30,898 nucleotides of DNA from a virus, in the IMG/VR virus record IMGVR_UViG_3300032268_000862, positions 1-30,898 of that record; one strand, 5' to 3'. Below the pieces are notes generated by a model. That model saw nothing but the letters and a program-made list of their open reading frames with translations, ran no database searches and was not told where the DNA came from. The position numbers were made by a program, and so were the translations under genes. Below, piece after piece: positions 757 through 15,143 of the stretch; position 1 is the first letter of the stretch; every line of letters begins with the position of its first letter.

Positions 757-759
757 TCG

Positions 760-2055
760 GTGGCCTTCGACCCGACCGACTACGATGCGTTCCTGGCCCT
801 CTGGAGGACGCTCTTCCCGCGGAGCTACACGGTCCCGATCGAGACCGAGGGCGACGGGCAAGGGCTCGACGTCTACGCGCAACAGGCAGCCCAGTTCGCT
901 CGTCTGAGCGACGCTCTCAACACGACGACCCAAGCCTACTACCTCCGGCCTCACTCGACGCAGACGGCTCCGGAGTCGGCGGGAGCCGTGAGAGCGTCGG
1001 GCTCGATCGAGGTCTCCCGGGAGGCCCCGGCGACGGGCGCGATCACGCTCTCCCAGGGAACGCAGTTCGTCGCCGACGTCCGATCTCCGGACGGCTCGAT
1101 CTTGGACGGGATCTTCGTCGAGTCGACAGAAGACGTCCTCCTCCCGGCCGGGACGCTCGGACCCTACTCCGTTACCGTCCGGGCGGTCCGTCCGGGCTAC
1201 CAGGGCAACGTCCCTGCGGGCTCGATCGTTCGCTTCGCCCTCCGGGGTCGAGCGACCATCCTCGGCGCGACGGTCGAGGCCGGGAACGTCCTCCGGGACA
1301 CCGGAGTCCCGGACCGCCTGACCCAGGCGATGATCGGACAGTACGTCCGCCTCGTCGGCGGAGCGAACGGAGGAACGGTCCCGCGTCGCATCCTCTCTGT
1401 GACCCAGGGCCCCACGAGCTTCGCGGTCCTCGACGGCGCTCCCTTGGTCGCTCCTGACACGCTGACCCAGGCGGAGGTCGAGGAGTTCGGCGACCTCGGC
1501 CTGACGGTCTCGCAGTCCTCCGCGCTCTCGGGAGGGAGGCACGGCTTTCTCGACGCGATCGCGACCGACCGGAACACGGGGAGACAGCCCGGAGAGAGCG
1601 ACGAGCAACTCCGGGCCCGTCTCGTTGCTCTCGATGACGTCGTCTCTCCGGCGGCGATTCGTCGGGCGGCCTCTCGCGTCCTCTCGCCTCTCGGGATCGC
1701 GTTCGACCTCCGAGAGACGCGAGACCCTGGAGGGCTCTTCGGCTTCGTCTACGACTTTCACCCCTACGACGCGTTCGACCTGTTCTCGAACGCCTCTCCG
1801 GTCTACGTCGACGAGTTCTCCTCCGTGACCTTCTTCGTCCTCCTCGTCGCCTTTGGGAACCAGGGAGAGTTCGGCTTCTCCTACGATGCCCCCTACCCTC
1901 GGAACGCCTACGACGCGACGACGGCGGACGCCCTGAACTTCTACGACGGATCGCCGAGGCTCTATCTCGCGGCCCTCGCGTCGCTCTACGATGCGGTGAA
2001 CCGTGCGCGGGCGGCCGGAGTCGGCTGGGTGTTGGCGAGAGACCCGAACCTCTGA
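760..2055 (+). CDS. Second baseplate J-like protein
   Basis: A 431-residue protein starting at GTG 760, just after the previous stop. It repeats the J-family layout: GTQFVADVR near residue 105, a GYQGNVPAGSI segment near 147, and R-Q-P-G-E-S-D-E-Q-L-R-A-R-L near residue 272, the most typical motif of the family. The last third (about residues 310-431) is rich in F, Y and D and has no motif I recognise; it may be the part that differs from the first copy. It probably forms part of the baseplate with the preceding gene and is followed by a third structural gene at 2068. The family assignment is firm; whether the two J proteins have distinct positions or form a heteromer is unknown. Confidence 0.78.
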   Translation: MAFDPTDYDAFLALWRTLFPRSYTVPIETEGDGQGLDVYAQQAAQFARLSDALNTTTQAYYLRPHSTQTAPESAGAVRASGSIEVSREAPATGAITLSQGTQFVADVRSPDGSILDGIFVESTEDVLLPAGTLGPYSVTVRAVRPGYQGNVPAGSIVRFALRGRATILGATVEAGNVLRDTGVPDRLTQAMIGQYVRLVGGANGGTVPRRILSVTQGPTSFAVLDGAPLVAPDTLTQAEVEEFGDLGLTVSQSSALSGGRHGFLDAIATDRNTGRQPGESDEQLRARLVALDDVVSPAAIRRAASRVLSPLGIAFDLRETRDPGGLFGFVYDFHPYDAFDLFSNASPVYVDEFSSVTFFVLLVAFGNQGEFGFSYDAPYPRNAYDATTADALNFYDGSPRLYLAALASLYDAVNRARAAGVGWVLARDPNL

Positions 2056-2067
2056 CAGAGAGAGACC

Positions 2068-3540
2068 ATGAGCGGCAACGACAACGTCCTGATCAACAAC
2101 CTGGAGCGTGCGCTCTCCACGGACACGAACAACCTCCAGAGCGTCCAGGCTCGGGTGCTCGCGGAGCTTGCGCGGTTCCTCTTCCGGTCTCGGGTCCAGG
2201 GCGCGGCCTTCGTGGAGACGACGGAGCCCTTCCTCGCCGGTCTGGCGGTTACGGCCTCGGGCTCGGACCTCCAGGTCGGAGTCGGTGTCCTCGGTCAGCA
2301 GAGCGCGACGGTGCTTCCCGTCCCTGGCCCTCTGGACTCGGACTACCGGCTTTCGCGGCTCGACACTCCCGCGACGATCGCGGGGCCCGTTCCGGGCGTG
2401 AACACTTGGTATCTCGTCGAGGCCCAGGCGACCCAGGTCGTCGCGTCCTCGGTCGTCCGGGACATCTACAACCCGGGGACGGGGACCTTCGCTCCCGCGC
2501 TCGTGAACAAGCTCCTGACGAACTCGATCCAGTTCCAACTCACCGCGGGCGGAGCCAACGTGCCCCTGCCGGTCGGAGGAGACTGGGTGCCGTTGGCGGC
2601 CGTGCAGTTCCCGGCGGGCGGCGGCGCTCCTCTCCAGATCGTGGACGCCCGACCGTTGCCGGAGATCGACTCCGAAGGCCGGAGCATCGACGGTCAGATC
2701 TTGCACCAGACGATCAGGACGACCTCGACGCCTGACGTCCCGTCGAACGCGGCCTTCGTCTCGGCCTCGGTCGTCGGTCCCGCCGGAAAGCTCGGAGGGC
2801 TCTACTCCGGGAGCCTGACGGCCTCCTCGGTCCTGGAGCCCGGGACCGTCCTCGCGGGCTCGACGTGGTACTACCTCTGGCTGTGCCCGTGGTCCGCGTT
2901 CGACCTCCGACCGAGCCCCGGACAGCTTTCCGGAGCCGACTTCCAGGGCGTGCTCACCGTCTCTCCGACTCCTCCCTCCGCCGGGACCATCCTCCCGTCG
3001 GCTCCGATCCAGCTTCCTGTCCCGTGGTCGCTCTTCTCGACCTCGGACGCGGTCTGCGTCGGAGCGGTCCGGAGGAACGCGGCGAACTCGGGCTGGGTCT
3101 CCTCGATCGAGGCCGCGCACCAGGGCTCGCTCCCTCTCGGCGCGTTCTCTCTCTCGGGCGTTCCCGTTGCCGGGACGAACTTCGTCCGGGCCTACTTTGA
3201 CGCGGTCCCCTCGGCCGTCCTGAACACTCGGACCGTGGCGGTGAACCTCGCGGGCTTCGTCCCGGAGCACGCCTCGTCCGTCCGCCTCGCGGTCCACGTC
3301 GAGACAAGCCTGAACGTGGGGACGGGCCGCTTCGACCTGGGCGTCGCTGCGAGCGGGAGCACGTTCGGCTGGTCCTACCAGTCGATGGGCCAGGAGAACG
3401 GAACGGGCTCGACGACGACGGAGGTCTGGTCTTTCGTCGACTGGCCTCGCGGCTCCCTCGGCGACGCGATCGACGTGAACACGTTCTGCACCGCTTCCGC
3501 CCAGCAACTCTCCGTCTACGTCGTCGGGTGGACCGTCTGA
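2068..3540 (+). CDS. Large tail/baseplate-associated structural protein
   Basis: A 490-residue protein starting at ATG 2068 after a purine-rich GAGAGAGA sequence. It is rich in G, S, T, V and P with few charged residues after residue 60, which suggests an extended beta-rich virion protein. The N-terminal 50 residues are helical and charged (N-N-L-E-R-A-L-S, then L-A-E-L-A-R-F-L-F), as in proteins that dock onto a baseplate. It lies directly after two J-like proteins, the usual place for tail-fibre or baseplate-periphery proteins. I recognise no enzymatic motif. The stop codon overlaps the ATG of the endolysin by one base (TGATG). A fibre-connector or receptor-binding role is inference from position and composition. 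Confidence 0.55.
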   Translation: MSGNDNVLINNLERALSTDTNNLQSVQARVLAELARFLFRSRVQGAAFVETTEPFLAGLAVTASGSDLQVGVGVLGQQSATVLPVPGPLDSDYRLSRLDTPATIAGPVPGVNTWYLVEAQATQVVASSVVRDIYNPGTGTFAPALVNKLLTNSIQFQLTAGGANVPLPVGGDWVPLAAVQFPAGGGAPLQIVDARPLPEIDSEGRSIDGQILHQTIRTTSTPDVPSNAAFVSASVVGPAGKLGGLYSGSLTASSVLEPGTVLAGSTWYYLWLCPWSAFDLRPSPGQLSGADFQGVLTVSPTPPSAGTILPSAPIQLPVPWSLFSTSDAVCVGAVRRNAANSGWVSSIEAAHQGSLPLGAFSLSGVPVAGTNFVRAYFDAVPSAVLNTRTVAVNLAGFVPEHASSVRLAVHVETSLNVGTGRFDLGVAASGSTFGWSYQSMGQENGTGSTTTEVWSFVDWPRGSLGDAIDVNTFCTASAQQLSVYVVGWTV

Positions 3541-4244
3541 TGCTTGTCCTCGGAGGGAAGATCGTCGCCGGAACGGAGTGGATCCTCGGCTGGAGAGAGA
3601 CCGGCCTCCTCTTCGACCCCTCGAAGTACTCGGGGTGCCGCAAGCGCAAGGGGACCGTGCGCCACGTCGTCGGGCATTGGACTGGAGGCGAGGCCGGGAC
3701 GACGAACGGCGACGATGATGGGAAGCGTGTGTACGACGCGCTTCGAGGACGAAAGGACGCGGACGGGAAGCCTTCTCCGCTCTCGGTCCACTTCACGATC
3801 GGGGCGACCGGGAAGGTCTGGCAACACGCGGACGCCCTCTCGACGGTGGCCTTCCACGCCGGAGCGGTCAACGAAACGTCGATCGGGATCGAGGTCGTCT
3901 CGAAGGGCTTCCCTCCGGCCGACCCAGGCCGTCCTCGACCCGAGGTCGAGCACGTCGTCCACGGTCGGAAGGTCCGACAGGTCGCGTTCCTCCCGGCTCA
4001 GATCGAGAGCTACGTCCGACTGTGCGCGGTCCTCGCGAGAGAGTGCGCTCTTCCGATGCGAGTCCCCGGGAAGGGCGTCGCTGGGGAAGTCGAGATCGCG
4101 AGCGATCGGATCTCCGACGAGGCCATCCAGCGTTGGTCTGGCTTCCTCGAACACCTCCACGTCTCGTCTTCCAAGGCCGACGCGGGGACCCAACTCTCCC
4201 GGGCTCTCCGGGAGGCGGGCTTCGTGGCCTCCGTTCCGTCGTGA
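3540..4244 (+). CDS. N-acetylmuramoyl-L-alanine amidase (endolysin)
   Basis: A 234-residue protein of the amidase_2/PGRP family, which cleaves the bond between MurNAc and L-alanine in peptidoglycan. Visible landmarks are the first zinc ligand in V-V-G-H46-W-T, the core strand V-H84-F-T-I, the motif W-Q-H96, A-F-H106-A-G and N-x-x-S-I-G-I-E (111-118), and a late K-A-D-A-G segment resembling the family's 'KxDPG'. The ATG at 3540 overlaps the upstream stop; an upstream in-frame GTG at 3528 would lie inside the previous gene and is less likely. There is no signal peptide, so release should need a holin; small hydrophobic proteins follow at 4831 and 5732. It opens the lysis block. Confidence 0.88.
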   Translation: MLVLGGKIVAGTEWILGWRETGLLFDPSKYSGCRKRKGTVRHVVGHWTGGEAGTTNGDDDGKRVYDALRGRKDADGKPSPLSVHFTIGATGKVWQHADALSTVAFHAGAVNETSIGIEVVSKGFPPADPGRPRPEVEHVVHGRKVRQVAFLPAQIESYVRLCAVLARECALPMRVPGKGVAGEVEIASDRISDEAIQRWSGFLEHLHVSSSKADAGTQLSRALREAGFVASVPS

Positions 4245-4262
4245 TGCTACCCCGAGGGGCCT

Positions 4263-4844
4263 ATGCGCTACCTCCTCGCCCTGACCATCCTCCTCCTGCC
4301 CTCTCTCGCCTCGTCGCAGGACCGGCGGAGAGAGCCTGACGCGCTCCTCCTGGCTCGAATCTGCGCGCACGAGGCGGGCTGGGAAGCTCGCGGAGAGTGC
4401 GCGGCGATCTACGACGTCCTCCTCCGAGTCGCCGAGAGGCACGGGATGACCTTCCGAGGCGCGGCCTACGCCTACTCGGGAAGGGCTCTCCGGGGCTCGA
4501 CGAACCGAGCGTGGGTCTCCCAACTCGACGAAGCGGGGACCGCTCCCTCGTCCTGGCCTACGATCCGGACCGTCTGCCGTCGGGCGGGCGAGCCTTGCTC
4601 GGTGGAGAGGCACGCCCCTTGGGTCTCGTATCGTCGGCCCTGGCTTGACCTCCTGGACCACGCTCGCTCGATCGTGCGCGGCGACGTCGCGTCTCCCTGC
4701 GTTTCGCGGCCCGACGACTGGGGTGGGGCGATGGATCGCGATCGGGCCTCGCGGATCGGGCTCGTGACGGTAAACTGCGGAGAGACTCGGAACGATTTCT
4801 ACGTCCGACCGTCAACCCTCCGGGAGCAGTATGAGCCTGAGTGA
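4263..4844 (+). CDS. Secreted protein, possible second cell-wall hydrolase
   Basis: A 193-residue protein with a clear signal peptide: M-R-Y, then a hydrophobic stretch L-L-A-L-T-I-L-L-L-P-S-L-A with likely cleavage after A-S-S. The mature part starts with an A-R-I-C-A-H-E-A-G-W-E-A-R-G-E-C segment followed by a helix, reminiscent of the 'E-x-x-G/E-A-R-G-E' active-site region of SleB/lysozyme-like wall enzymes. It ends with D-D-W-G-G and V-N-C-G-E-T-R-N-D-F-Y, resembling the end of phage transglycosylase-like proteins. Six cysteines in the exported part would suit disulphides. It sits between the amidase and a spanin-like gene. Export is well supported; the enzymatic role is tentative and an export-only accessory protein is possible. 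Confidence 0.5.
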   Translation: MRYLLALTILLLPSLASSQDRRREPDALLLARICAHEAGWEARGECAAIYDVLLRVAERHGMTFRGAAYAYSGRALRGSTNRAWVSQLDEAGTAPSSWPTIRTVCRRAGEPCSVERHAPWVSYRRPWLDLLDHARSIVRGDVASPCVSRPDDWGGAMDRDRASRIGLVTVNCGETRNDFYVRPSTLREQYEPE

Positions 4845-5208
4845 TGTTCTGGTTGCAGCGGTCTCGATCCTCGGCTCCGGAGGCTTCGCCGGAGCGATCG
4901 GTGGAGCGATCCAGGCAAAGGCCCGAGAGGGCCAGGAGACGGCAACGGCAGAGAGGTTGAAGGCCGAGAGCGAAGCTCGAACAGCCCAGGCCGTCGCGGA
5001 CGCGTTGAGCCACGCGAGGGCAGATCTGAACGACGCGAAGAAGCTCTACGACGAGGCGATTCGCAACGAGCGAGCATGCCATCAACGGGTCGAAGACCTC
5101 CGCCGAGAGGGCGAGACGCAACGAGCGGAGTGCGACCGTCGCGTGGAGGAACTCGCCCGGAAGGTCGAGCGGCTCGGCTCGACGATCCGGCCTCCCGCGC
5201 ACACTTGA
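4831..5208 (+). CDS. Coiled-coil protein with N-terminal hydrophobic segment (i-spanin-like)
   Basis: A 125-residue protein whose ATG lies 14 bases inside the previous gene. Residues 4-27 form a weakly hydrophobic, glycine-rich segment that could be a membrane anchor. Residues 30-115 are almost entirely charged and alanine-rich heptads with two cysteines, a long coiled coil. This anchor-plus-coiled-coil layout is that of inner-membrane spanins (Rz type), and a small lipoprotein follows at 5329 as an outer-membrane partner would. No sequence-level family match is recognised, so the spanin role rests on topology and position. A tail or holin-accessory protein is the alternative. The gap after it (5209-5328) holds a strong hairpin. 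Confidence 0.55.
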   Translation: MSLSDVLVAAVSILGSGGFAGAIGGAIQAKAREGQETATAERLKAESEARTAQAVADALSHARADLNDAKKLYDEAIRNERACHQRVEDLRREGETQRAECDRRVEELARKVERLGSTIRPPAHT

Positions 5209-5252
5209 CGGACGATCCCGGAGCGGACACGATCGGAGGGCGAGGTAGGGTG

Positions 5253-5290
5253 CCCCGCATCGCTCCGGAGACGGAGCCGGAGCCTCGGGG
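5253..5290 (+). terminator. Nested stem-loop in lysis-block intergenic gap
   Basis: A perfect 7-bp stem (GCTCCGG 5262-5268 with CCGGAGC 5277-5283, 8-nt loop) sits inside an outer 5-bp stem (CCCCG 5253-5257 with CGGGG 5286-5290). It lies in a 120-bp gap between the coiled-coil gene and the lipoprotein gene. No U-tract follows at once (CTTTT appears at about 5307), so it may be a weak terminator, an mRNA-processing site or a structural leader for the lipoprotein message. Confidence 0.35.
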
Positions 5291-5313
5291 AGACCTGGGG
5301 CTTCGCCTTTTCG

Positions 5314-5322
5314 TGCTACCGT
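5314..5322 (+). promoter_or_regulatory. Possible extended -10 promoter for the lipoprotein
   Basis: TGCTACCGT at 5314-5322 fits an extended -10 (TGnTAnnnT). The ATG of the lipoprotein lies only 6 bases after it, so the transcript would start at or next to the start codon and be leaderless. I see no convincing -35 at 16-18 bp. There is no Shine-Dalgarno-like sequence in front of this ATG, which fits a leaderless message. Weak evidence. Confidence 0.2.
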
Positions 5323-5328
5323 CAACGG

Positions 5329-5571
5329 ATGCACGCGACCCCTCTCCACGGTCTCGCCGTCGTCCTCGGGACGTCGCTCCTCTTCGGAGCGTCCTGCGGA
5401 GCCTCGGCGGAGCTTCGTACCCGCTACGCGACCGAGGTCGCCCGATGCACCTCGAACGAGCGGGCGATCGTCGACCGCGAAGGCTCGACTTACGAGCAGG
5501 ACCGAGCCGACCTCGCGACCGAGCGGGCTCGGTGCGACGCGGCCCTGGCCGCGATCGGAGGTGCCCCGTGA
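5329..5571 (+). CDS. Small lipoprotein (o-spanin-like)
   Basis: An 80-residue protein with a signal sequence (residues 8-22, L-A-V-V-L-G-T-S-L-L-F-G-A-S) ending at C23, a probable but not perfect lipobox (G-A-S-C). The mature part is a short charged region with two further cysteines (A-R-C-T-S and A-R-C-D-A) and periodic A/R/E residues, probably helical. It follows the anchored coiled-coil protein, the usual order for an i-spanin/o-spanin pair that fuses inner and outer membranes at the end of lysis. It is shorter in proline than typical o-spanins, so the role is inferred mainly from position and lipidation. Its stop overlaps the next GTG. Confidence 0.55.
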   Translation: MHATPLHGLAVVLGTSLLFGASCGASAELRTRYATEVARCTSNERAIVDREGSTYEQDRADLATERARCDAALAAIGGAP

Positions 5572-5735
5572 CCGCGGAGCAAGTCGTCCGCCTCGCGGTC
5601 GAGGCGATCCGGGCCGTGATCTCCCTCGCCGAGGGCCTGGGCCACAGGGACGCGGTCCTCTCGGCTCTCGACGCGACCCTGGCGGCCGTCCGCGGCCGAA
5701 CGGACTCCGATCTCGAAAGGAAGCACGGCCGATGA
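5568..5735 (+). CDS. Small helical protein of lysis block
   Basis: A 55-residue protein starting at GTG 5568, overlapping the previous stop by 4 bases (GTGA), and ending in an overlap with the next ATG (5732). The composition (V-V-R-L-A-V-E-A-I-R-A-V-I-S-L-A-E-G-L) suggests an amphipathic helix followed by a charged C-terminus. There is no membrane segment long enough for a holin. It is supported as a gene by the tight overlaps on both sides and by codon use like its neighbours. No family is recognised; a holin accessory or antiholin is a guess from position. Confidence 0.5.
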   Translation: MTAEQVVRLAVEAIRAVISLAEGLGHRDAVLSALDATLAAVRGRTDSDLERKHGR

Positions 5736-5896
5736 AGCTCCCGAAAATCGATGGTCCCCAGGCGGCCGTGATCGTCTCGATCGTCATCGCTACGACGGCG
5801 ATCTGCGTCCTGGCCCCCGAGGAGTATCGGGCACCGATCGTCGCCCTCCTGACGGCTCTCGCTGGCCTCGCTCGATCTCCTACCTCGCCGACCTGA
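5732..5896 (+). CDS. Small membrane protein, holin candidate
   Basis: A 54-residue protein whose ATG overlaps the previous stop. After a short charged N-terminus (M-K-L-P-K-I-D) come two hydrophobic segments separated by a charged turn: A-A-V-I-V-S-I-V-I-A-T-T-A-I-C-V-L-A (11-28) and I-V-A-L-L-T-A-L-A-G-L-A (36-47), with P-E-E-Y-R between. Two short membrane helices in a tiny protein at the end of a lysis block is the typical layout of a class II holin. Holins lack conserved motifs, so this rests on topology and context. It is the last gene before the large noncoding region. Confidence 0.5.
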   Translation: MKLPKIDGPQAAVIVSIVIATTAICVLAPEEYRAPIVALLTALAGLARSPTSPT

Positions 5897-6273
5897 CGGG
5901 AGCGGACCGAGCGGAGGGATGGAGGGAGTCCCCCCTTACCCCCCAGAGCAGGGAGTAAGGGAGGGCTTCGACGGTCCGCGTCCTCGCGTCGGTCAGTCGG
6001 TCGGCCTCGCGGTCTCGCCTCTCTGGAGGCTCGGTCCCGCGACACCCACTCCTCCCGCGGCTCGGCGCTCCTGGGGCGCACGTCTCCTCGCGGCTGACCC
6101 TCGTCCGCCGGAGGCTATCCAGGCGGAGGATTGACGTCCGAGCCCCGGACGCAGGGTTCGCGGCGAGGCCGCTTAGGGTGGGTGCCCCAAGCCCTCCGAG
6201 GAGGGCACGAGCACAAGTTCCCCCATCTTCCGAGGCAGATCAAGCGGTCGACCAGAATTCGCACCGAATCGAA
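5897..6273. other. Noncoding boundary region with four stem-loops
   Basis: I see no credible gene in these about 377 bases. The region holds four inverted repeats: 5933-5961 (listed separately), CGTCCG/CGGACG at 6135-6140 and 6146-6151, GCGGC/GCCGC at 6160-6164 and 6168-6172, and GCCCTC/GAGGGC at 6191-6196 and 6201-6206. It separates the late lysis genes from the first of the repeated promoters at 6274. In GC-rich DNA some hairpins are expected by chance, but three in 72 bases is dense. A terminator cluster, a small RNA or an origin are all possible; none is proven. Confidence 0.4.
5930..5965 (+). terminator. Stem-loop after lysis block (possible late terminator)
   Basis: CCCTTAC (5933-5939) pairs perfectly with GTAAGGG (5955-5961), and the loop holds a further CCC/GGG pair, giving a strong hairpin 36 bases after the last lysis gene. 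No U-run follows. Its position at the end of a long run of late genes makes a terminator or 3'-end-stabilising structure plausible. Confidence 0.4.
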
Positions 6274-6311
6274 GATTCTTTCTTGAACATCTCTCCTTTT
6301 GAGATTAGAAC
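6274..6311 (+). promoter_or_regulatory. Repeated early promoter, copy 1
   Basis: GATTCTTTC box (6274-6282) directly followed by -35 TTGAAC (6283-6288), a 17-bp spacer and -10 TAGAAC (6306-6311). The same arrangement recurs in front of genes at 6693, 8111 and 9319. The AT-rich box stands out against the GC-rich background. It should be read by the host vegetative sigma factor; the box may be an UP element or activator site. Confidence 0.75.
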
Positions 6312-6318
6312 ATCACTC

Positions 6319-6333
6319 GTGGCGCAGGGCCAC
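6319..6333 (+). promoter_or_regulatory. Leader stem-loop 1 at +1
   Basis: GTGGC (6319-6323), loop GCAGG, GCCAC (6329-6333), starting 8 bases after the -10, about at the expected transcript start. The surrounding 33 bases (6315-6347) recur at 6653-6685 with only two differences. A 5'-terminal hairpin like this commonly protects phage early mRNA from decay or presents the ribosome site (GAAGGAGAG follows). Confidence 0.6.
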
Positions 6334-6351
6334 AGCGAAGGAGAGACGAAG

Positions 6352-6516
6352 ATGGGAAGCCAGGAACAGCGCGCGGAAGAGGCGACGATCGCTCGGATGC
6401 TTCGGGAGCTTGCTTCGGACATGGCGGACCTCGTCGCGGCCGGAGAGATGACGGACGAGGAGGCGAACGAGTGGGTCAATCGGAAGGCCGACCAATGGGC
6501 CTTCGGCCTCTCCTGA
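6352..6516 (+). CDS. Small acidic early protein of unknown function
   Basis: A 54-residue acidic helical protein, first gene after promoter copy 1. ATG 6352 is chosen because it follows a good ribosome site (GAAGGAGAG) and the promoter leader; the open frame extends further upstream, but through the promoter. Residues 3-30 look like an amphipathic helix (E-E-A-T-I-A-R-M-L-R-E-L-A), followed by G-E-M-T-D-E-E-A-N-E-W-V-N-R-K-A, a second helix. It is not recognised. Its size, acidity and place right behind a strong early promoter fit a host-takeover protein, but that is inference only. Confidence 0.65.
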   Translation: MGSQEQRAEEATIARMLRELASDMADLVAAGEMTDEEANEWVNRKADQWAFGLS

Positions 6517-6602
6517 GAGGACTTGAAAGAGCCCCGTCGGAGGACGAAGCCGGTTCGCCACCGGCACGGGGCCTTGGTCCGGTCTTCTCGGTCGAAGTCC
6601 TT
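6517..6602 (+). ncRNA. Structured intergenic element with tRNA-like minihelix
   Basis: Directly after the stop at 6516, AGGACTT (6518-6524) pairs with AAGTCCT (6595-6601) and closes a domain. Inside, GCCCCGT (6531-6537) pairs with ACGGGGC (6566-6572), and GCCGG (6549-6553) with CCGGC (6561-6565) around a 7-base loop TTCGCCA. The 3' strands of the two helices are contiguous, as in the acceptor plus T-arm of a tRNA, with an 11-base bulge in place of the D and anticodon arms. There is no CCA end or anticodon, so it is not a functional tRNA. Pairing is seen in the sequence; an RNA function is inferred. Confidence 0.35.
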
Positions 6603-6612
6603 CCCTGAAGTC

Positions 6613-6650
6613 GATTCTTTCTTGACCCTCGTCCATTTTGAGATCAAAAC
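6613..6650 (+). promoter_or_regulatory. Repeated early promoter, copy 2
   Basis: GATTCTTTC (6613-6621), -35 TTGACC (6622-6627), 17-bp spacer, -10 CAAAAC (6645-6650). The -10 lacks the first T and is the weakest of the four copies. The spacer end (TTTTGAGAT) is identical to copy 1. Confidence 0.7.
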
Positions 6651-6656
6651 TAACTC

Positions 6657-6671
6657 GTGGCGCAGGGCCAC
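6657..6671 (+). promoter_or_regulatory. Leader stem-loop 2 at +1
   Basis: GTGGC (6657-6661), loop GCAGG, GCCAC (6667-6671), 7 bases after the -10. It is identical in stem and loop to copy 1 and is followed by the ribosome site GAAGGAAAG. Confidence 0.6.
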
Positions 6672-6692
6672 GGCGAAGGAAAGACATCCCAG

Positions 6693-6917
6693 ATGAAGAT
6701 CAACATTCAGTTCCCCTTGTTCTGCGCTCGCCTTCCCCTCGTCGCGGCTGACGCTCGCGACCCTCACCTTGCTGGCGCGGTGGCTGGCCTCGCGGGCCTC
6801 ATCCAAGACCGCGCATTTACTCCGGCGACCTTGCAAGAGGTGGCCCGAGAGGCTGGCCTTTTGGTCACGCGTCGAGGCGTCGGCCTTTCAACCCAGGTCG
6901 TGCTTCGTTGGCTTTGA
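6693..6917 (+). CDS. Small early protein of unknown function
   Basis: A 74-residue protein from ATG 6693, the first ATG after promoter copy 2 and its ribosome site. The N-terminus (M-K-I-N-I-Q-F-P-L-F) looks like a beta strand. The rest is alanine- and leucine-rich: a helix L-A-G-A-V-A-G-L-A-G-L-I and a short F-T-P-A-T-L-Q-E-V-A-R-E-A-G-L-L segment that could be part of a small helix-turn-helix, followed by S-T-Q-V-V-L-R-W-L. No family is recognised. Its stop overlaps the TTG start of the zinc-ribbon gene, so the two are probably translated together. A DNA-binding role is only a possibility. Confidence 0.6.
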   Translation: MKINIQFPLFCARLPLVAADARDPHLAGAVAGLAGLIQDRAFTPATLQEVAREAGLLVTRRGVGLSTQVVLRWL

Positions 6918-7090
6918 GAGAGTTCATCGGCACCTACGCCTGTCACGGGTGTAGGTGCCGAGTCCGCGTCTACGATTGGCTTCCGGCTATGCTCCTTTGT
7001 GCAAGATGCTCAAAGGAGGAACACCGAAACGAAAGATTGGCTACGGGTCTTTGGTCCGAAGGGGACCAGCAAAGGGAGAGAGAAACATGA
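6914..7090 (+). CDS. Small zinc-ribbon protein
   Basis: A 58-residue protein with C10-x2-C13 and C29-x2-C32 (plus C15), the spacing of a zinc ribbon. The start is uncertain: TTG 6914 overlaps the previous stop (TTGA) and is preferred for coupling, while TTG 6908 would add two residues; no ATG or GTG is available before the first cysteines. The C-terminal third is charged (E-G-D-Q-Q-R-E-R-E-T). The stop overlaps the ATG of the next gene (7087). The codons for the first cysteines lie inside a 16-bp RNA hairpin (6927-6961), so this stretch may serve both as coding sequence and RNA structure. Such ribbons often bind nucleic acid or RNA polymerase; the partner is unknown. Confidence 0.6.
   Translation: MREFIGTYACHGCRCRVRVYDWLPAMLLCARCSKEEHRNERLATGLWSEGDQQRERET
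6927..6961 (+). promoter_or_regulatory. 16-bp hairpin with 3-nt loop
   Basis: Bases 6927-6942 pair with 6946-6961 around a TCA loop. There are 14 Watson-Crick pairs, the outer 11 in an unbroken run, and 2 G-U pairs. It starts 10 bases after the stop of the 6693 gene, where a terminator or attenuator would lie, but no U-tract follows. It overlaps the start of the zinc-ribbon gene. It could partly terminate transcription, be a processing site, or hide the start of the zinc-ribbon gene. Confidence 0.55.
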
Positions 7091-8007
7091 CGATCCAGGA
7101 CGTTCGCTCGGTTCTTCGCGGTGAGGGCTCGCACATTGTCGGCGCGATCACGATGTGGTCGCTCTCCGAGGTCCGCGTTCGCTGGGACGACCTCCGGACC
7201 GCCTTCGAGGCGATCGGTTTGGGTGACGCGGTCCCTCGTCGTCCGGTCGCGAAAGCTCTGATCAAGCGAGCGTGCCGTCGAGCGAGCCTCGGGCGTGCGG
7301 CCCTCGTCGCCGACGTCGTGCGCGACGACGTCGATCAGGTGATCGTCGCCCTCTCCTCCCGAGCGACCGACGAGACCCAGGCCGAGGCTCGCTACGCTCA
7401 CCAGACCCGGATCATGGTCTCGAAGCGGGACGGCTCGATCCTCCTGGAGAACTCCGAACACGCGGCGGCGGCCGAGGTCTCGGCCCTCTACCTCGACAGC
7501 CTGGACTACGCGACCGGCGAGGACCTCGCGACGGCGCTCCACCACGCCCTCTCGGGGCGGACGCACGACCCGATGCTCGCAGGGGTCAACCTCCGCGGCG
7601 ACGCGGGAGGCGTGTACTTCGTGCCGGAGACCCACCTCGCTCGCCTTCAGGCTCTCGCGGGATTCGTCTCCGAGCAGGGCTCCTCGACGATGGAGGTCTG
7701 GGAGGTCACGGGCTCGGACAAGCACCTTGCCCAGGCCGCCCGAGCGGTCGAGGGGGCCTTTGGGGTCAAGCTCGCGAAGCTCCGCGAGGACGTGGCGGCC
7801 TTCGCGACGAAGCTCCGCTCCGAGTCCTCCGACCCGAAGGCCCAGGAGGCTCTCGACGAGGCGATCTCCTCCCGTCGAGCGCGGTACGAGGAACTCGCAG
7901 CCCAGGTCGACACCTACGCGGACGTCCTCGGAGCGAAGCGAGACGGACTCCTCTCCTCGATCTCGGAGGCCCGCGACGCCCTCCGAGCGGCGATCCTCGG
8001 GGACTGA
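7087..8007 (+). CDS. DUF6744-like phage protein
   Basis: A 306-residue protein starting at ATG 7087, which overlaps the upstream stop (ATGA). Residues 1-60 look helical (W-D-D-L-R-T-A-F-E-A-I-G-L). The central part has V-S-K-R-D-G-S-I-L-L-E and a typical G-D-A-G-G-V-Y-F-V-P motif near residue 180, which I associate with phage DUF6744 proteins. Residues 215-300 form a long charged coiled coil (L-R-E-D-V-A-A-F-A-T-K-L-R through L-S-S-I-S-E-A-R-D-A-L). It lies in promoter unit 2 and directly before the RavA-like ATPase and VWA protein, so it may be a partner or client of that pair. The family name is from memory of the motif; the function is unknown. Confidence 0.6.
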   Translation: MTIQDVRSVLRGEGSHIVGAITMWSLSEVRVRWDDLRTAFEAIGLGDAVPRRPVAKALIKRACRRASLGRAALVADVVRDDVDQVIVALSSRATDETQAEARYAHQTRIMVSKRDGSILLENSEHAAAAEVSALYLDSLDYATGEDLATALHHALSGRTHDPMLAGVNLRGDAGGVYFVPETHLARLQALAGFVSEQGSSTMEVWEVTGSDKHLAQAARAVEGAFGVKLAKLREDVAAFATKLRSESSDPKAQEALDEAISSRRARYEELAAQVDTYADVLGAKRDGLLSSISEARDALRAAILGD

Positions 8008-8033
8008 CAGTCGAGCCAAGGCGGAGCGGACAA

Positions 8034-8071
8034 GATTCTTTCTTGACCCCTCCGCCTTTCGAGATTAGAAA
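8034..8071 (+). promoter_or_regulatory. Repeated early promoter, copy 3
   Basis: GATTCTTTC (8034-8042), -35 TTGACC (8043-8048), 17-bp spacer, -10 TAGAAA (8066-8071). It drives the RavA-like ATPase gene. Confidence 0.75.
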
Positions 8072-8079
8072 CACAACTC

Positions 8080-8094
8080 GCGACTGCGGGTCGC
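8080..8094 (+). promoter_or_regulatory. Leader stem-loop 3 with compensatory changes
   Basis: GCGAC (8080-8084), loop TGCGG, GTCGC (8090-8094). Aligned to leaders 1 and 2 (GTGGC/GCCAC), two stem positions have changed on both strands so that pairing is kept. This argues that the RNA fold itself is selected. An alternative fold CTGCG/CGCAG (8084-8088 and 8092-8096) is also possible. Confidence 0.6.
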
Positions 8095-8110
8095 AGAAAG
8101 GCAAGTCACG

Positions 8111-9238
8111 ATGACCGTCCACTCCCAGGTCCTGGCCCTCCGCTCCTCCCTCCTCGGCGCGTTCTGCGAGCGGGAGCGAGAGATCGACTCCCTCCTGATC
8201 GCGGCCCTCGCTCGCGAGCACATTCTCCTCCTCGGTCCTCCGGGGACGGCGAAGTCCGAACTCGCTCGGGCCTTCGCGGGTGCCCTCTCGGGCGCGACGC
8301 ACTTCGAGTGGCTCCTCTCCCGCTTCTCCTCGCCGGAGGAACTCTTCGGGCCGGTCAGCCTCTCGGGCCTGAAGGCCGACCGCTTCGAGCGTGTCACGAC
8401 CGGGAAGCTCCCGGAGGCCCACGTCGCCTTCCTCGACGAGGTATTCAAGGCGAACTCCGCGGTCCTGAACTCGCTCCTCGGCGTGATCAACGAGAGGCAC
8501 TTCCACAACGGGACCGGGATCCAGAAGTGCCCGCTCGTGACGTGCGTCGCGGCCTCGAACGAGCTTCCGGAGGGCCCGGAACTCGGCGCGCTCTGGGATC
8601 GGTTCGTCCTCCGGCATTGGGTGGACTACGTCCAGAGCCCGGACTCGTTCGCGGCGATCGTCGGCGGGACGAAGAGCCTCCGGGCCTCGGTCTCGATCTC
8701 CCTCGGCGAGTGGGAGGCGGCCCAGGCCGAGGTCGACGCGGTCGCCCTCCCGAAGAAGGTCATCGAAGCCCTCTTCTCGCTCCGGGCGAAGCTCCAGGCC
8801 GAGGGCATCACGGCCTCCGACCGTCGGTGGCGCAAGTGCGGCGCGCTCCTCCGGGCGGCCGCTTGGCTCGACGGTCTCCAGGCCGTCGAGGTCGAGCACC
8901 TCGCGGTCCTCGCTCACGCGCTCTGGAACACGCCCGATCAGGCCCCGAAGGTCGCGGGCCTCGTCGCGGGCTTCGCCTCGGAGGAACTCGCCAAGGCGCA
9001 GCAGATCGCGGACAGCCTCGTCGAGGTCCTCGCGAAGGTCCCGGCGGAGTCGGACGGGAGCTTCGAGGCTCGGGCGGTCTCGGCACGACGGGAGGTCCGG
9101 AAGGGCCTGGAGCGGATCTCCGCCCTCCGGTCCGCGGCAAGCCCGAGCGCGGCTCGGAAGATCGAGGCGATCGCCTCCGACCTCCAGGCCCGAAGCGCGA
9201 CCCTCCGCGAGGCCGTCGAGCGTCTCCTCTCGCTCTGA
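8111..9238 (+). CDS. RavA/MoxR-family AAA+ ATPase
   Basis: A 375-residue AAA+ protein of the MoxR class, closest by eye to E. coli RavA. Motifs in order: Walker A G-P-P-G-T-A-K-S at 42-49; the RavA-typical F-S-S-P-E-E-L-F-G-P at 72-81; Walker B H-V-A-F-L-D-E at 104-110 followed by F-K-A-N-S; I-N-E-R-x-F-H-N-G at 126-134; sensor 1 A-S-N-E at 148-151; and D-R-F-V-L-R at 163-168 with a likely arginine finger. The C-terminal 110 residues are helical, and the protein is shorter than RavA (about 500), probably lacking its extra domain. MoxR ATPases act as chaperone-like remodellers with a VWA partner; the VWA gene follows at 9319 under its own identical promoter. The target in this phage is unknown. 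Confidence 0.88.
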   Translation: MTVHSQVLALRSSLLGAFCEREREIDSLLIAALAREHILLLGPPGTAKSELARAFAGALSGATHFEWLLSRFSSPEELFGPVSLSGLKADRFERVTTGKLPEAHVAFLDEVFKANSAVLNSLLGVINERHFHNGTGIQKCPLVTCVAASNELPEGPELGALWDRFVLRHWVDYVQSPDSFAAIVGGTKSLRASVSISLGEWEAAQAEVDAVALPKKVIEALFSLRAKLQAEGITASDRRWRKCGALLRAAAWLDGLQAVEVEHLAVLAHALWNTPDQAPKVAGLVAGFASEELAKAQQIADSLVEVLAKVPAESDGSFEARAVSARREVRKGLERISALRSAASPSAARKIEAIASDLQARSATLREAVERLLSL

Positions 9239-9242
9239 CGAT

Positions 9243-9280
9243 GATTCTTTCTTGACCTCGCTCGCCGTCGAGTCTATACA
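9243..9280 (+). promoter_or_regulatory. Repeated early promoter, copy 4
   Basis: GATTCTTTC (9243-9251), -35 TTGACC (9252-9257), 17-bp spacer, -10 TATACA (9275-9280), the closest of the four to the sigma-70 consensus. It starts 4 bases after the stop of the ATPase gene and drives the VWA gene. Confidence 0.75.
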
Positions 9281-9282
9281 AA

Positions 9283-9299
9283 GGCTCGACGGTCGAGCC
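9283..9299 (+). promoter_or_regulatory. Leader stem-loop 4
   Basis: GGCTCGA (9283-9289), loop CGG, TCGAGCC (9293-9299). Its sequence and length differ from the other three leaders and it starts only 3 bases after the -10, so the transcript start may fall inside it. The presence of a hairpin at this place is nevertheless kept. It could also be a DNA palindrome bound by a regulator. Confidence 0.45.
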
Positions 9300-9318
9300 G
9301 TCAGAGAGGCAAGGCAAG

Positions 9319-10791
9319 ATGGATCAGGCGAAGGCGATCGAGATCATGCAGGGCGGCGCGGACGGCGCGGTGCGGGTCGGTTCCTGGGTTCGCTCCCTTG
9401 CGGTCGAGGAGGCCCAGGGAGGCGGAGCCTTCGGCGACTCGATCACCCGCCACGACTCCGCGGCCTGGGCGGGCTTCGCCCGAGAGGTCTTCGGATCGCT
9501 CTACGGTCTCGGGGTCGAGGCCGTCGAAGGCTCCTCCTGGGCCCGGGAGATCCTCTCCCAAGCGGAGAGCCTCCCGGAGTGGCGGGCCCTTCAGGCGCGG
9601 GCCGAGGGCGACTCCTGGGCGTGCGGCCTCGCGGCTTCCCAAGCTCTCGACGTCCTCGCCCCGATCTCGACGCCTCCCTCCGAGGACGCGGCTCAGGCAC
9701 GCGAGAAGGCCGAGGCTCTCCGCGAGGCTCTCGCCGAGAACCCGACCTCGGAGCGTCTCTTCTCGAAGCTGTCCAGGGCGATCGGCGACCTCGCACGGGC
9801 CGAGAAGTCCGACGAGGATGCGGCGGCCCAGGCTCGGGAGAGCGCGGCGAAGATTCGATCCGCCCTCCGTCGGGCGGCCGCTTCGGCCTCGGAAGCGGTC
9901 GACGAGGCTCAGGAGGCCCTCGCCGGTCTCGGGTGCTCGAAGGAGCCCGGATCGAAGGGCCAGGGCAAGCGTCCGGAGGCCGTCGCGGCTCTCCGCGGCT
10001 CGGCGAAGCTCCGCCGGATCGCCCGTCTCGCCGGTCGGCTGAAGGCCCAGGCGATCGCGAAGCAGAGCACGAAGGCCGACCACGGCCGGGAGGAACTCTG
10101 CGACGTCGAGTGCGGAGACGACCTCGGCCGCCTCCTCCCGAGTGAGTCGGTCTTCCTCGCCGACTCGGACCTGGAGGCCGTCCTCTTCCGCCGACTCCTG
10201 GAGCGGAGCGCGCTCCAGTACCGGCTCCGCGGGCGGGACGTCGAGGCCCAGGGCCCGATCGTGGTCGCGATTGACGAGAGCGGCTCGATGCAGGGCTCTC
10301 GCGACGAGTGGGCGAAGGCCGTCGCCCTTGCTCTGCTGGAGATCGCGCAGCGTCAGAACCGAGCCTTCGCCGTCGTCCCCTTCTCCGGCAAGGTGGGCGC
10401 GATCGCGGAGTTCCGAACCCCGAAGAGCGCAAGCCTGGAGGAGATCCTCTCGGTGCTGGGCGGCTTCATGGGCGGCGGGACGGCGATCGGCGCGGCCCTG
10501 GCGGCCTCCGCCGGTTTGATCTCGGCCGACTCCGAGCGTCGCCTCACCTCGGGCTCGAAGGCCTGGAAGAAGGCGGACGTCATCCTGATCACCGACGGGG
10601 TCGACCACGACCTCTCCGGGATCTCCCTGGGCCTCGACCGAGTCCGGGACTCCGGCGCGACGCTCCACGCGATCGCGATCGGATGCGACCTCGGGAAGAC
10701 GATCTCCGATCGGGCCGCGAGCACGACCCGAATCGACCACGAGGACCTCGGCGGCGCTTCGCCGAAGGTCGACGCGGTGTTCTCGATCTGA
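9319..10791 (+). CDS. VWA-domain protein (ViaA-like partner of the AAA+ ATPase)
   Basis: A 490-residue protein, about the size of E. coli ViaA. The N-terminal 300 residues are helical and alanine/glutamate-rich. The von Willebrand A domain begins near 310 with G-P-I-V-V-A-I-D319-E-S-G-S-M, the DxSxS metal-ion site, followed by a helix (A-K-A-V-A-L-A-L-L-E-I-A) and V-V-P-F-S-G as in ViaA; a G-G-G-T-A-I segment supplies the threonine and I-T-D-G-V-D the later aspartate. All metal-site residues appear intact. VWA partners of MoxR ATPases recruit substrates or bridge to them. Being next to a RavA-like ATPase under a matching promoter strongly suggests a working pair. CobT-like chelatase subunits are an alternative, but no CobN is seen. 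Confidence 0.85.
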   Translation: MDQAKAIEIMQGGADGAVRVGSWVRSLAVEEAQGGGAFGDSITRHDSAAWAGFAREVFGSLYGLGVEAVEGSSWAREILSQAESLPEWRALQARAEGDSWACGLAASQALDVLAPISTPPSEDAAQAREKAEALREALAENPTSERLFSKLSRAIGDLARAEKSDEDAAAQARESAAKIRSALRRAAASASEAVDEAQEALAGLGCSKEPGSKGQGKRPEAVAALRGSAKLRRIARLAGRLKAQAIAKQSTKADHGREELCDVECGDDLGRLLPSESVFLADSDLEAVLFRRLLERSALQYRLRGRDVEAQGPIVVAIDESGSMQGSRDEWAKAVALALLEIAQRQNRAFAVVPFSGKVGAIAEFRTPKSASLEEILSVLGGFMGGGTAIGAALAASAGLISADSERRLTSGSKAWKKADVILITDGVDHDLSGISLGLDRVRDSGATLHAIAIGCDLGKTISDRAASTTRIDHEDLGGASPKVDAVFSI

Positions 10792-10820
10792 CGGGCCCCG
10801 GGCCCGAGAAAGGCAGAAAC

Positions 10821-12038
10821 GTGACCAAGCACTCGAAGAAGCGGACGCTCTGCGTCCTGACGAACTCGGAGACGGAGACCTTCCGGACGTGCCCTCAGAA
10901 GTGGAGCTTCGCCTACCGCGAGGGGCTCCGGCCGAAAGTGGCGGCTCGGCCTCTCGCCTTCGGCTCGGCGATCCACTCCGGCCTGGAGGCCGCCTACCGC
11001 GAGATCGCGGCGGCCCGTCAGGCCGGGACGCATCAGGGCTTGTCGCCGGAGGGCCTCTCGGCGATCTCCAGGGCAGCGTGCGAGGCGAAGCTCCGGGCCT
11101 GGGACGATACCGTCGCGGCCGCCTCCGCCGAGCCGAACGAGGACGCGGTCGAAGAGTCCGAGCAGACGGCCGACCTCGCGAAGGTCATGCTCGCGAGGTA
11201 CTGGGATCGGTTCCAGCACGACGCGGTCGACCTGATTCCCCTCGCGATCGAGTGGCCCTTCGAGGTCGTCCTCCGCTCCTCGATCGGTCGAGCGGTCTCC
11301 CACCTTCGGTGGGCTGGCGTGATCGACCTCGTCGCCTTCGACCCTGTCGCCGGAGACGTCGTGATCTTCGACCATAAGACCACGAGCGGGCCGGTCTCTT
11401 CGATCGATCGCAGGGTCGAGATGGACCCGCAGATCGCGGGCTACCTCTGGGCCCTCCGCGAGGTCTTGATCCGAGACAAGGAACGAGCCCTCCCTCTCTT
11501 CGGCCTTTTGACGCCGGAGCAGAGGTCGCGGGCCATCTCCGGCCGCGCTCCGCTCGGTCGAGTGATCTACAACGTCCTCCGAAAGTCGGCCCCGAGGCAG
11601 CCTGTGGTCACGCTGAAGGGCCTCGTCTCCTCCGCGGCAATCGACACGACGTCCGAGATCTACGAGGCCGCCCTCCTGGCCCAGGAGGCCCGAGGCCTCC
11701 CGAGGACGGAGGCCCAGGCGGATCGTCTACACGGGCTCCGAGAGCGCGGGGACGTCTTCGTCTCTCGTCGAGCGTTCTGGAGGTCGGACTCCGAGATCGA
11801 CCGCTGGCGTCGAGAGGCTCTCCTCGACGCGAGCCGGATTCGTCAGGCGAAGGACGACCCGAGCTTGCTGACCCGGAGCCCGGGAGCTTGCACGGCTCCG
11901 TGGTCGCCTCCCTGCGCTTACCGATCGATCTGCCTCCAGCCCGAGTCCCAGGAACTCCGGAGCCTGTTCCGGGTCGCGACGACGGCCCACGAGGAGATCC
12001 GAGAGGCCGAAGAGGTGGCGCAGCCCGACCCGTTCTGA
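10821..12038 (+). CDS. PD-(D/E)XK nuclease with Fe-S cysteines (RecB/Cas4-like)
   Basis: A 405-residue protein; GTG 10821 is chosen since it follows a GAAAGG ribosome site and the family N-terminus begins right after it. The exonuclease core shows G-V-I-D169, then I-F-D184-H-K186-T-T and the helix D-P-Q-I-A-G-Y, the D...(D/E)xK...QxxxY pattern of RecB/Cas4 nucleases. One cysteine near the N-terminus (C24 in T-C-P-Q-K-W) and three near the C-terminus (C357, C365, C371) match the split 4Fe-4S site of AddB/Cas4. It would process DNA ends for the Sak4/SSB recombination pair that follows. I class it as a phage exonuclease rather than CRISPR Cas4, since no cas genes or repeats are present. Confidence 0.85.
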   Translation: MTKHSKKRTLCVLTNSETETFRTCPQKWSFAYREGLRPKVAARPLAFGSAIHSGLEAAYREIAAARQAGTHQGLSPEGLSAISRAACEAKLRAWDDTVAAASAEPNEDAVEESEQTADLAKVMLARYWDRFQHDAVDLIPLAIEWPFEVVLRSSIGRAVSHLRWAGVIDLVAFDPVAGDVVIFDHKTTSGPVSSIDRRVEMDPQIAGYLWALREVLIRDKERALPLFGLLTPEQRSRAISGRAPLGRVIYNVLRKSAPRQPVVTLKGLVSSAAIDTTSEIYEAALLAQEARGLPRTEAQADRLHGLRERGDVFVSRRAFWRSDSEIDRWRREALLDASRIRQAKDDPSLLTRSPGACTAPWSPPCAYRSICLQPESQELRSLFRVATTAHEEIREAEEVAQPDPF

Positions 12039-12072
12039 ACTTGACTTGCGGCGAACCATCGAGGATTAGAAC
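12032..12072 (+). promoter_or_regulatory. Degenerate fifth copy of the early promoter
   Basis: GTTCTGAACTTGACT overlaps the stop of the nuclease gene and resembles the GATTCTTTCTTGACC block with an insertion. A GATTAGAAC -10 region (TAGAAC 12067-12072) is identical to copy 1. The spacer, however, is 20 bp, so it should be weak or need an activator. Confidence 0.35.
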
Positions 12073-12091
12073 CAAGGAAGGTGAGGCGAGG

Positions 12092-12499
12092 ATGAAGGAC
12101 GAGACGAAGAAAGCGGTCGCTGACGCGATCGCGAAGGGCGGAGAGCGGGAGCGTCAGATCGTCGCCCGCTTCCGAGCCTGGGAGGGCTTTCAGAAGGCCC
12201 TCCAGGACGCGAGGCGGACGGCGAAGGAGCGTGTCGACGCGGCCCAGGCTCGGTTCCGAGAGGCGATCGAGGCGGGGACTCAGCAGACCCAGGCGAGCAA
12301 GGCCGGGAAGCTCCAGGCCGTCGAGTCTTCCTGGCAAGCTCTGGAGGAGGCGAAGGCGGAGAAGATCGAGGACGTCAAGGCGGCGAAGGACGACCTCCAG
12401 GTGGCGGAGTCGAGGCTCCGGGAGGCCGTCGAGAACGCCGCCCAGTTGACGCTCTGGCCCTCCGAGGAGACCGGAGAGATCGAGGACGAGGACGCCTGA
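12092..12499 (+). CDS. Coiled-coil protein of recombination block
   Basis: A 135-residue protein starting at ATG 12092 behind GAAGGTGAGGCGAGG. Nearly the whole length is charged helix rich in A, E, K, R and Q (I-V-A-R-F-R-A-W-E-G-F-Q-K-A-L, then long heptads to residue 118), ending with Q-L-T-L-W-P and an acidic tail E-I-E-D-E-D-A. No catalytic motif is seen and no family is recognised. The acidic tail and the place between the nuclease and the Sak4-like gene suggest a structural or accessory factor in recombination, which is inference. The frame is open upstream, but that part overlaps the nuclease gene and is not coding. Confidence 0.6.
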   Translation: MKDETKKAVADAIAKGGERERQIVARFRAWEGFQKALQDARRTAKERVDAAQARFREAIEAGTQQTQASKAGKLQAVESSWQALEEAKAEKIEDVKAAKDDLQVAESRLREAVENAAQLTLWPSEETGEIEDEDA

Positions 12500-12504
12500 C
12501 GTGG

Positions 12505-12513
12505 TGTTAGGCT
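12505..12513 (+). promoter_or_regulatory. Extended -10-like element before Sak4 gene
   Basis: TGTTAGGCT fits TGnTAnnnT, in the only gap (60 bp) before the Sak4-like gene. The nearly identical TGATAGGCT lies at 13926-13934 before the replication gene. I see no good -35 for either. A small CGAGG/CCTCG hairpin (about 12525-12541) follows. Confidence 0.3.
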
Positions 12514-12559
12514 CCGAGCGAGGCACGAGGATTCGGCCTCGAAAGAAAGGGAAGAGACA

Positions 12560-13911: not shown

Positions 13912-13915
13912 CCCT

Positions 13916-14002
13916 GCGCGAGGTCTGATAGGCTCGGGCCTCGCGCTCCTCGCTTGACTTGGTCGAGCGCGGAGCGGAAGGTCCGAGCGGGCTCCAGAGC
14001 CC
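13916..14002 (+). other. Three consecutive stem-loops before replication gene
   Basis: GCGCGAGG/CCTCGCGC (13916-13923 and 13939-13946, 15-nt loop); CGCTTGAC/GTCGAGCG (13951-13958 and 13962-13969, TTG loop, one G-U); and GGGCT/AGCCC (13989-13993 and 13998-14002). The first begins 5 bases after the SSB gene's stop, so it may be a terminator. The first loop contains TGATAGGCT (13926-13934), an extended -10-like sequence. An origin or leader regulation are alternatives. Confidence 0.4.
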
Positions 14003-14017
14003 AGAGAGGAGAGACGG

Positions 14018-15140: not shown

Positions 15141-15143
15141 GCG

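Follow-up and report, generated by a model that had tools for sequence, protein, structure and literature searches.

Directly behind a small early gene in the virus record IMGVR_UViG_3300032268_000862 lies a short stretch whose letters can be arranged as the acceptor/T-arm half of a tRNA, which raises the question of whether the phage carries a tRNA-like RNA at this point, the remains of a tRNA gene, or a plain stem-loop between two genes. The window, meaning the entire stretch of DNA analysed, is the whole IMG/VR record (30,898 bases, 67% GC) and includes baseplate J, portal and terminase genes. The minihelix is found between the late/lysis-side genes and an early block that comprises small ORFs, DUF6744, a bpMoxR ATPase and a VWA gene. 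Elsewhere in the window, genes for an MT-A70 methyltransferase (19163-19720), a PAPS-reductase-like protein (19675-20589) and a TET-associated glycosyltransferase (TAGT, 21409-22272) are clustered, which suggests DNA modification.

Genomic setting of the minihelix

An earlier note on this DNA had described a 7-bp and a 5-bp helix with contiguous 3' strands and an 11-base bulge, and this arrangement is exact in the letters (Table 1). Its position right behind a small early gene was also described correctly, the minihelix starting 14 nt 3' of the TGA (6514-6516) that ends a 54-aa ORF. This gene matches nothing in Pfam or PHROGs and has one distant relative, in L005 (61% identity over residues 15-50), where the next gene follows directly and no minihelix is present.

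Table 1. Features of the minihelix region (window positions unless marked L004).
Feature	Position	Strand	Remarks
Promoter-like box P1, TTGAAC - 17 nt - TAGAAC	6274-6311	+	5' of first early gene; own reading
Small early gene, 54 aa, MGSQEQRAEE...	6352-6516	+	Directly 5' of minihelix
Outer stem, 5' arm AGGACTT	6518-6524	+	Judged incidental; unused in MFE; absent in L004
Minihelix (7-bp 'acceptor', 5-bp 'T-arm', 11-nt bulge)	6531-6572	+	Direct reading
Acceptor 5' strand GCCCCGT	6531-6537	+	
Bulge CGGAGGACGAA, 11 nt	6538-6548	+	L004 counterpart is CAGAGGACGGCC
T-arm strands GCCGG, CCGGC	6549-6553, 6561-6565	+	
Loop TTCGCCA	6554-6560	+	
Acceptor 3' strand ACGGGGC	6566-6572	+	Contiguous with T-arm 3' strand
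Direct repeat, left copy ACGGGGCCTTGGTCC	6566-6580	+	At minihelix base; imperfect; family D9
Orphan 3' coding tail of L004-type small gene	6569-6610	+	42/42 nt identical to L004 12417-12458
Outer stem, 3' arm AAGTCCT	6595-6601	+	Inside orphan coding tail 6569-6610
Promoter-like box P2 and leader hairpin	6613-6685	+	Before MKIN ORF (6693-6917)
Direct repeat, right copy ACGGGTCTTTGGTCC	7043-7057	+	Homology with L004 (12502 onward) resumes here
DUF6744 leader hairpin TGGTCC-GAAGG-GGACCA and Shine-Dalgarno	7050-7086	+	Gene starts at 7087
L004 small gene (MSSK), 75 aa	L004 12229-12456		Whole in L004; ends ...GLGPVFSVEVLP-stop

The early genes are accompanied by promoter-like boxes. A motif of the form GATTCTTTCTTGA...GAGATNA is present at 6274, 6613 and 8034 and occurred in none of 100 shuffles, and a fourth promoter-like box lies at about 9243-9245; TTCTTTCTTGA is common to all four. 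A sigma-70 consensus scan of 5400-8000 returned no promoter-like sites; the boxes are putative promoters, judging by their repetition and position. Among 11 other records searched, the motif was found only in the contig IMGVR_UViG_3300009152_000140 (hereafter L004), in three copies, and the whole of that record has P-type boxes only at 12153, 13495 and 14704.

Leader hairpins precede all five early genes that were checked (6321-6351, 6658-6692, 7051-7086, 8074-8110 and 9284-9318), and in each their 3' ends lie 16-20 nt before the start codon. The stems differ (GTGGC/GCCAC twice, TGGTCC/GGACCA, GCGAC/GTCGC and GGCTCGA/TCGAGCC), and the loop is of 5 nt and ends in GG in four of the five. Stems of at least 5 bp at the same distance were seen at 3 of 21 other starts checked. 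These hairpins may act as 5' stabilisers of the mRNAs.

Comparison with the related contig L004

L004 was the sole close relative found, and the window was compared with its positions 1-20694. Identity is 97.3% over window 1-6364 and 98.3% over 7043-15233, and within window 1-15233 homology breaks at one stretch only, where 678 bp of the window (6365-7042) stand against 260 bp of L004 (12242-12501). Since the stretch surrounding the minihelix is the only one replaced within the 15.2 kb compared, the element belongs to a mosaic early-gene region. The stretch 6365-7042 is a replacement hot spot, with different small genes placed between a common leader and a common downstream gene.

The minihelix is present in L004 at 12466-12508, with both stems unchanged and with its acceptor/T-like geometry kept, so that the same element stands behind two unrelated small genes, 14 nt after the stop codon in the window and 9 nt after it in L004. 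The order in L004 is promoter-like box and leader (common to both genomes), small gene, minihelix, DUF6744 leader hairpin directly after it, and DUF6744, with no P-type box between the minihelix and the start of DUF6744 (12546). Substitutions and gaps fall outside the helices: none of the 24 columns in the stems differs, whereas 5 of the 19 columns without pairing do (four substitutions and one gap; Fisher p 0.012), in a hand-made alignment of two genomes that are 97-98% identical and display no covariation. The pattern weakly favours selection on pairing.

The mosaic joint can be traced around the base of the minihelix. The GGGC(C/T)TTGGTCC of the imperfect 15-bp direct repeats is found again in the small-gene tail of L004, and by our own reading window 6525-6572 joined to 7050-7095 gives the L004 arrangement, apart from changes in bulge and loop and three differences in the flanks. 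In the simplest history, cassettes carrying small genes would have recombined at this short homology, in either direction.

This joint also bears on the outer 7-bp stem with which the earlier note had closed the element into an RNA domain. Both arms exist in the letters, but the stem is not used in the MFE structure of the window, where its GGACU pairs with GGUCC directly 3' of the minihelix, and L004 lacks it: the longest complement that its tested flanks share is 3 nt. A 7-bp complement between shuffled flanks arose in 2.1% of 20,000 trials. Because the 3' arm lies in the orphan coding tail, L004 is without the stem and the MFE pairs otherwise, the closed domain would most simply be a by-product of the recombination junction. 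The minihelix is a real but small feature that had been extended wrongly into a closed domain.

Translation across the element was considered and rejected, on the grounds that a 1-nt indel of the bulge puts window and L004 into different frames and that in L004 no ATG, GTG or TTG occurs between the small-gene stop and the TGA (own reading). Downstream in the window, an ORF of 60 aa (6908-7090) with a zinc-ribbon-like CxxC...CxxC pattern (own reading) overlaps at its end the DUF6744 leader hairpin and start codon. Residues 32-60 of this ORF matched L004 12460-12546 by tblastn (59%, E 1e-5), a match attributed mainly to the DNA common to both from 12502 on.

Chance expectation and predicted folding

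The chance level of the minihelix depends on what is asked of its loop. Dinucleotide shuffling of the window (300 shuffles; Watson-Crick pairs only, linker 5-20, both strands searched) gave an expectation of 0.0067 per window for a 7+5 bp minihelix whose loop has TTC or TTCG, and of 0.45, against one observed, when any 7-nt loop was accepted. With 60 first-order Markov sequences and one G-U pair permitted per helix, the expectations were 0.083 (TTC), 0.017 (TTCG) and 3.7 (any loop). The topology alone is therefore not unusual; the rarity comes from the TTC loop, a criterion that was chosen post hoc, after sight of the sequence.

Folding energies are, by prediction, mildly better than those of shuffled sequences and no more: the 86 nt that include the outer stem gave z -1.70, with 11 of 200 shuffles equally good, and for the 42-nt core 15 of 500 shuffles had equal or better energy. 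The T-arm is populated at 23% in the predicted ensemble of the window, and a rival fold is favoured at -23.4 vs -19.9 kcal/mol for the minihelix fold. The folding program awards no coaxial-stacking bonus across a bulge. For L004 the corresponding predictions are 97-99% for the T-arm and 67-82% for the acceptor. The 7-base loop starting with TTCG, as earlier proposed, is correct as letters, but its first and last bases (U and A) are able to pair, which leaves a 6-bp stem with a 5-nt loop, and the rival fold wins.

Resemblance to tRNA

ARAGORN found no tRNA in the window, and covariance-model searches (tRNA, tmRNA and other families) gave no family match at the element in the window. Rfam returned nothing at gathering score in the whole window, nothing at the minihelix up to E 10 in 1.1 kb of context, and no tRNA-type, tmRNA or YrlA match for the cut-out window element at E<=10; RF00005 (tRNA) was detected in 0 of 3 records at E<=10. 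The window loop has C at position 58 and A at 60, while the L004 loop, TTCGACA, keeps T54, T55, C56, G57 and A58 together with G53-C61 and likewise has A at 60, a position that is a pyrimidine in nearly all tRNAs. A 3' CCA is not encoded (CTTGG in the window, TTTGG in L004). In a typical T-loop, residues 1 and 5 close the loop as a U-A reverse-Hoogsteen pair (PMC4810234), and the window loop cannot make this U54-A58 pair because position 58 is C. With no encoded CCA, no equivalent of A58, a competing fold and no tRNA or Rfam match, the suggestion of a functional tRNA mimic lacks support in the window.

At default settings ARAGORN reported a tRNA-Phe in L004 (12424-12510) that uses the T-arm of the minihelix. 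The call was rejected: its D and anticodon arms are made of coding sequence at the small gene's tail, its acceptor includes a G-G mismatch, and at a 70% threshold the program adds six more tRNAs in the same 1 kb. The cut-out L004 element scored 10.5 bits against YrlA (gathering score 69) and 6.1 bits against tmRNA (E 0.23; gathering score 47), and the 3' half of a tRNA-Leu, used as a control, scored hardly higher (11.2 and 7.6 bits), in runs that omit lower-scoring clan members and so could hide a weak match to the tRNA model. As a real tRNA-Leu 3' half does hardly better, weak family scores do not count against a tRNA remnant. The bulge of the window (6538-6548) could form a short GTC/GAC hairpin resembling a tRNA variable arm, and that of L004 a CCGTC-AGAG-GACGG hairpin just 5' of the T-arm; the tRNA-Leu genes of two other contigs, L145 and L148, are alike in having a variable-arm hairpin before the T-arm. 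The tRNA likeness of the window minihelix is weak, and the T-arm of L004 is closer to a real one.

Occurrence elsewhere

Searching viral_contigs with the exact minihelix pattern gave 86 stretches, with both helices complete in one, the L004 contig. A looser pattern (bulge and T-arm) gave 14 stretches, i.e., L004 and 13 others, of which L148 alone can also form seven acceptor pairs in a span of 20 nt when G-U is counted; this match is inside the tRNA-Leu. Four of the 13 lie inside ARAGORN tRNAs, although the pattern contains a T-arm and so favours tRNAs. The T-arm plus acceptor pattern was absent from all 396 Actinomycetota genomes (exact match only; the true host may lie elsewhere) and matched once in genome_contigs (L102), outside any tRNA.

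A search for DUF6744 gave one locus, that of L004. The eight MoxR loci besides L004 (of nine) showed no minihelix in the stretches scanned and no P-type box in their records, and the small-gene relatives L005 and L104 are without the minihelix. Phages yielded no relatives by blastn or by protein search. Matches to the promoter motif in 25 stretches (GC 0.34-0.55) were judged to be chance in the 24 besides L004, as were matches of 21-24 nt to five plasmid records (E 0.3). Among the loci scanned, perfect TTC minihelices besides that of L004 were seen in L027 and L035. The L027 example (5776-5820) is a perfect 7+5 bp minihelix with the canonical T-loop TTCAACT, shortly before an ATG; the locus has no ARAGORN tRNA and is unrelated to the window phage as far as seen.

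Interpretation

Our preferred reading, to which we give about an even chance, takes the 42 nt for a GC-rich stem-loop of the ordinary intercistronic kind, lying in an early-gene region that is mosaic. Among the three proposals of the earlier note, an RNA-stabilising 3' end, or intercistronic stem-loop, fits the position best, and the tRNA mimic is unsupported. We infer that the region is transcribed and that the element has a role at a 3' end. Transcription from P1 would read the small early gene, and the stem-loop would form 9-14 nt past its stop codon, where it might shield the small mRNA on its 3' side or mark a boundary (a pause, a partial stop or an exonuclease end point). In L004, transcription would have to run through the minihelix into DUF6744, a gene preceded by a leader hairpin of its own; in the window, P2 would take over the role of driving downstream transcription. 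A GC-rich hairpin whose loop contains UUCG would here resemble a tRNA mostly by coincidence, and recombination would have produced the outer stem as a by-product. A complete terminator is unlikely, as there is no U-tract (at most three T, in the TTTGG of L004), the minihelix is not among the two terminator-like sites of the 5400-8000 scan, and a full stop would sever DUF6744 of L004 from its only evident promoter. What speaks for an intercistronic stem-loop is position and conservation in one relative, its stability being only mildly above that of shuffles; the rarity of the TTC loop, the T-loop signature and ARAGORN call of L004, and the weak YrlA/tmRNA matches count against an ordinary hairpin.

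The same data can be read as a degraded tRNA gene of the Leu type, which lost its D and anticodon arms, retained its acceptor strands, its T-arm and some of its long variable arm, and is now carried passively or as a stem-loop. The retention of G53, T54-A58 and C61 in L004, its variable-arm-like hairpin as in the tRNA-Leu of L145 and L148, the four matches within tRNAs (from a pattern that favours them) and the low scores of a genuine tRNA-Leu 3' half would all fit. We regard this origin as doubtful, given A at loop position 60 in both genomes and C at 58 in the window, no D- or anticodon-arm remnant beside the minihelix, arms borrowed from the small-gene tail in the tRNA-Phe call, and no exactly matching source tRNA among the 396 Actinomycetota genomes or in genome_contigs, where the one match is outside a tRNA. 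It is unlikely that the element is only the joint of repeated cassette recombination, kept without RNA function as one event separates the two genomes; the direct repeats, their recurrence in the L004 tail and the reconstructed joint agree with such a relic, and at 97-98% general identity 24 unchanged positions are unremarkable by themselves, but the changes are concentrated in unpaired positions. An attP that duplicates the end of a host's tRNA gene, on the 3' side, is highly improbable at this site: attP sites of the tRNA type usually carry a T-arm and 3' acceptor strand, as here, but a perfect 5' acceptor complement would not be expected, and neither tyrosine integrase (PF00589) nor serine recombinase (PF00239) was found in the two records (possibly fragments).

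Host RNase P might instead cleave the 12-bp acceptor/T-like stack on its 5' side, with 3' trimming, and so free the mRNA of the small gene as well as, in L004, one for DUF6744 that starts near its leader hairpin. E. coli RNase P cleaves hairpin-loop model substrates consisting of acceptor stem, T-stem and T-loop (PMC11143913, PMC4919922), and section 5.4 of the latter lists bacterial mRNAs, the lac operon and phage-induced RNAs as substrates. The stack, with a G+1-C+72 first pair, is present as letters in both genomes, and in L004 it lies directly 5' of a leader hairpin with no P-type box between. We consider such a signal quite unlikely: there is no 3' RCCA, position -1 is A rather than U in both genomes (with U73 as a possible partner in L004), no U54-A58 pair is possible in the loop of the window, and the window's T-arm is predicted in a minority of folds, the stack being a likely prediction in L004 only. 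The element might go further and be a portable processing site in an early-gene cassette: host RNase P would cut the polycistronic early mRNA at a tRNA-derived or tRNA-like minihelix, and recombination at the minihelix base would exchange the gene that precedes it; we think this very unlikely.

If an RNase P cut were real, the promoterless DUF6744 of L004 would acquire a fixed 5' end close to its leader hairpin, and as a natural signal of this type the element would represent a minimal tRNA-like structure that originated in a phage. Should it be just a hairpin, the locus is a small example of a phage early region rebuilt from exchangeable promoter-leader-gene units, and shows that recombination joints are able to create false RNA domains.

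Comparison with known systems

The hairpin-loop substrates of RNase P (McClain 1987, cited in PMC11143913) resemble the minihelix in their 7+5-bp helix, continuous 3' strand and G-C first pair, and in the replacement of the rest of the tRNA by a short linker. The minihelix differs from these model substrates in lacking RCCA, in having A at -1 and, in the window, no A58, and in its natural intercistronic position. RNase P-cut mRNAs and phage-induced RNAs, and MALAT1/mascRNA, also have a tRNA-like fold within a longer transcript, near an upstream RNA end, and are described with biochemical evidence in section 5.4 of PMC4919922; the minihelix is known from sequence and predicted fold.

The 3' half of tRNA-Leu is similar in having GAGGACG near GCCGG-TTCG..-CCGGC, as in L145 and L148; the minihelix differs in lacking a D arm, anticodon arm and encoded CCA, in having A at loop position 60 and in the loss of A58 in the window. 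YrlA and tmRNA (RF02553, RF00023) share with the L004 copy a T-arm with GGUUCGA, but scores are far below gathering, no flanking module was found and the window copy is unmatched. Intercistronic and 3' protective stem-loops of phage mRNAs lack the two-part helix, large bulge and tRNA-like proportions seen here; what they have in common with the minihelix is a stable GC-rich hairpin 9-14 nt past a stop codon.
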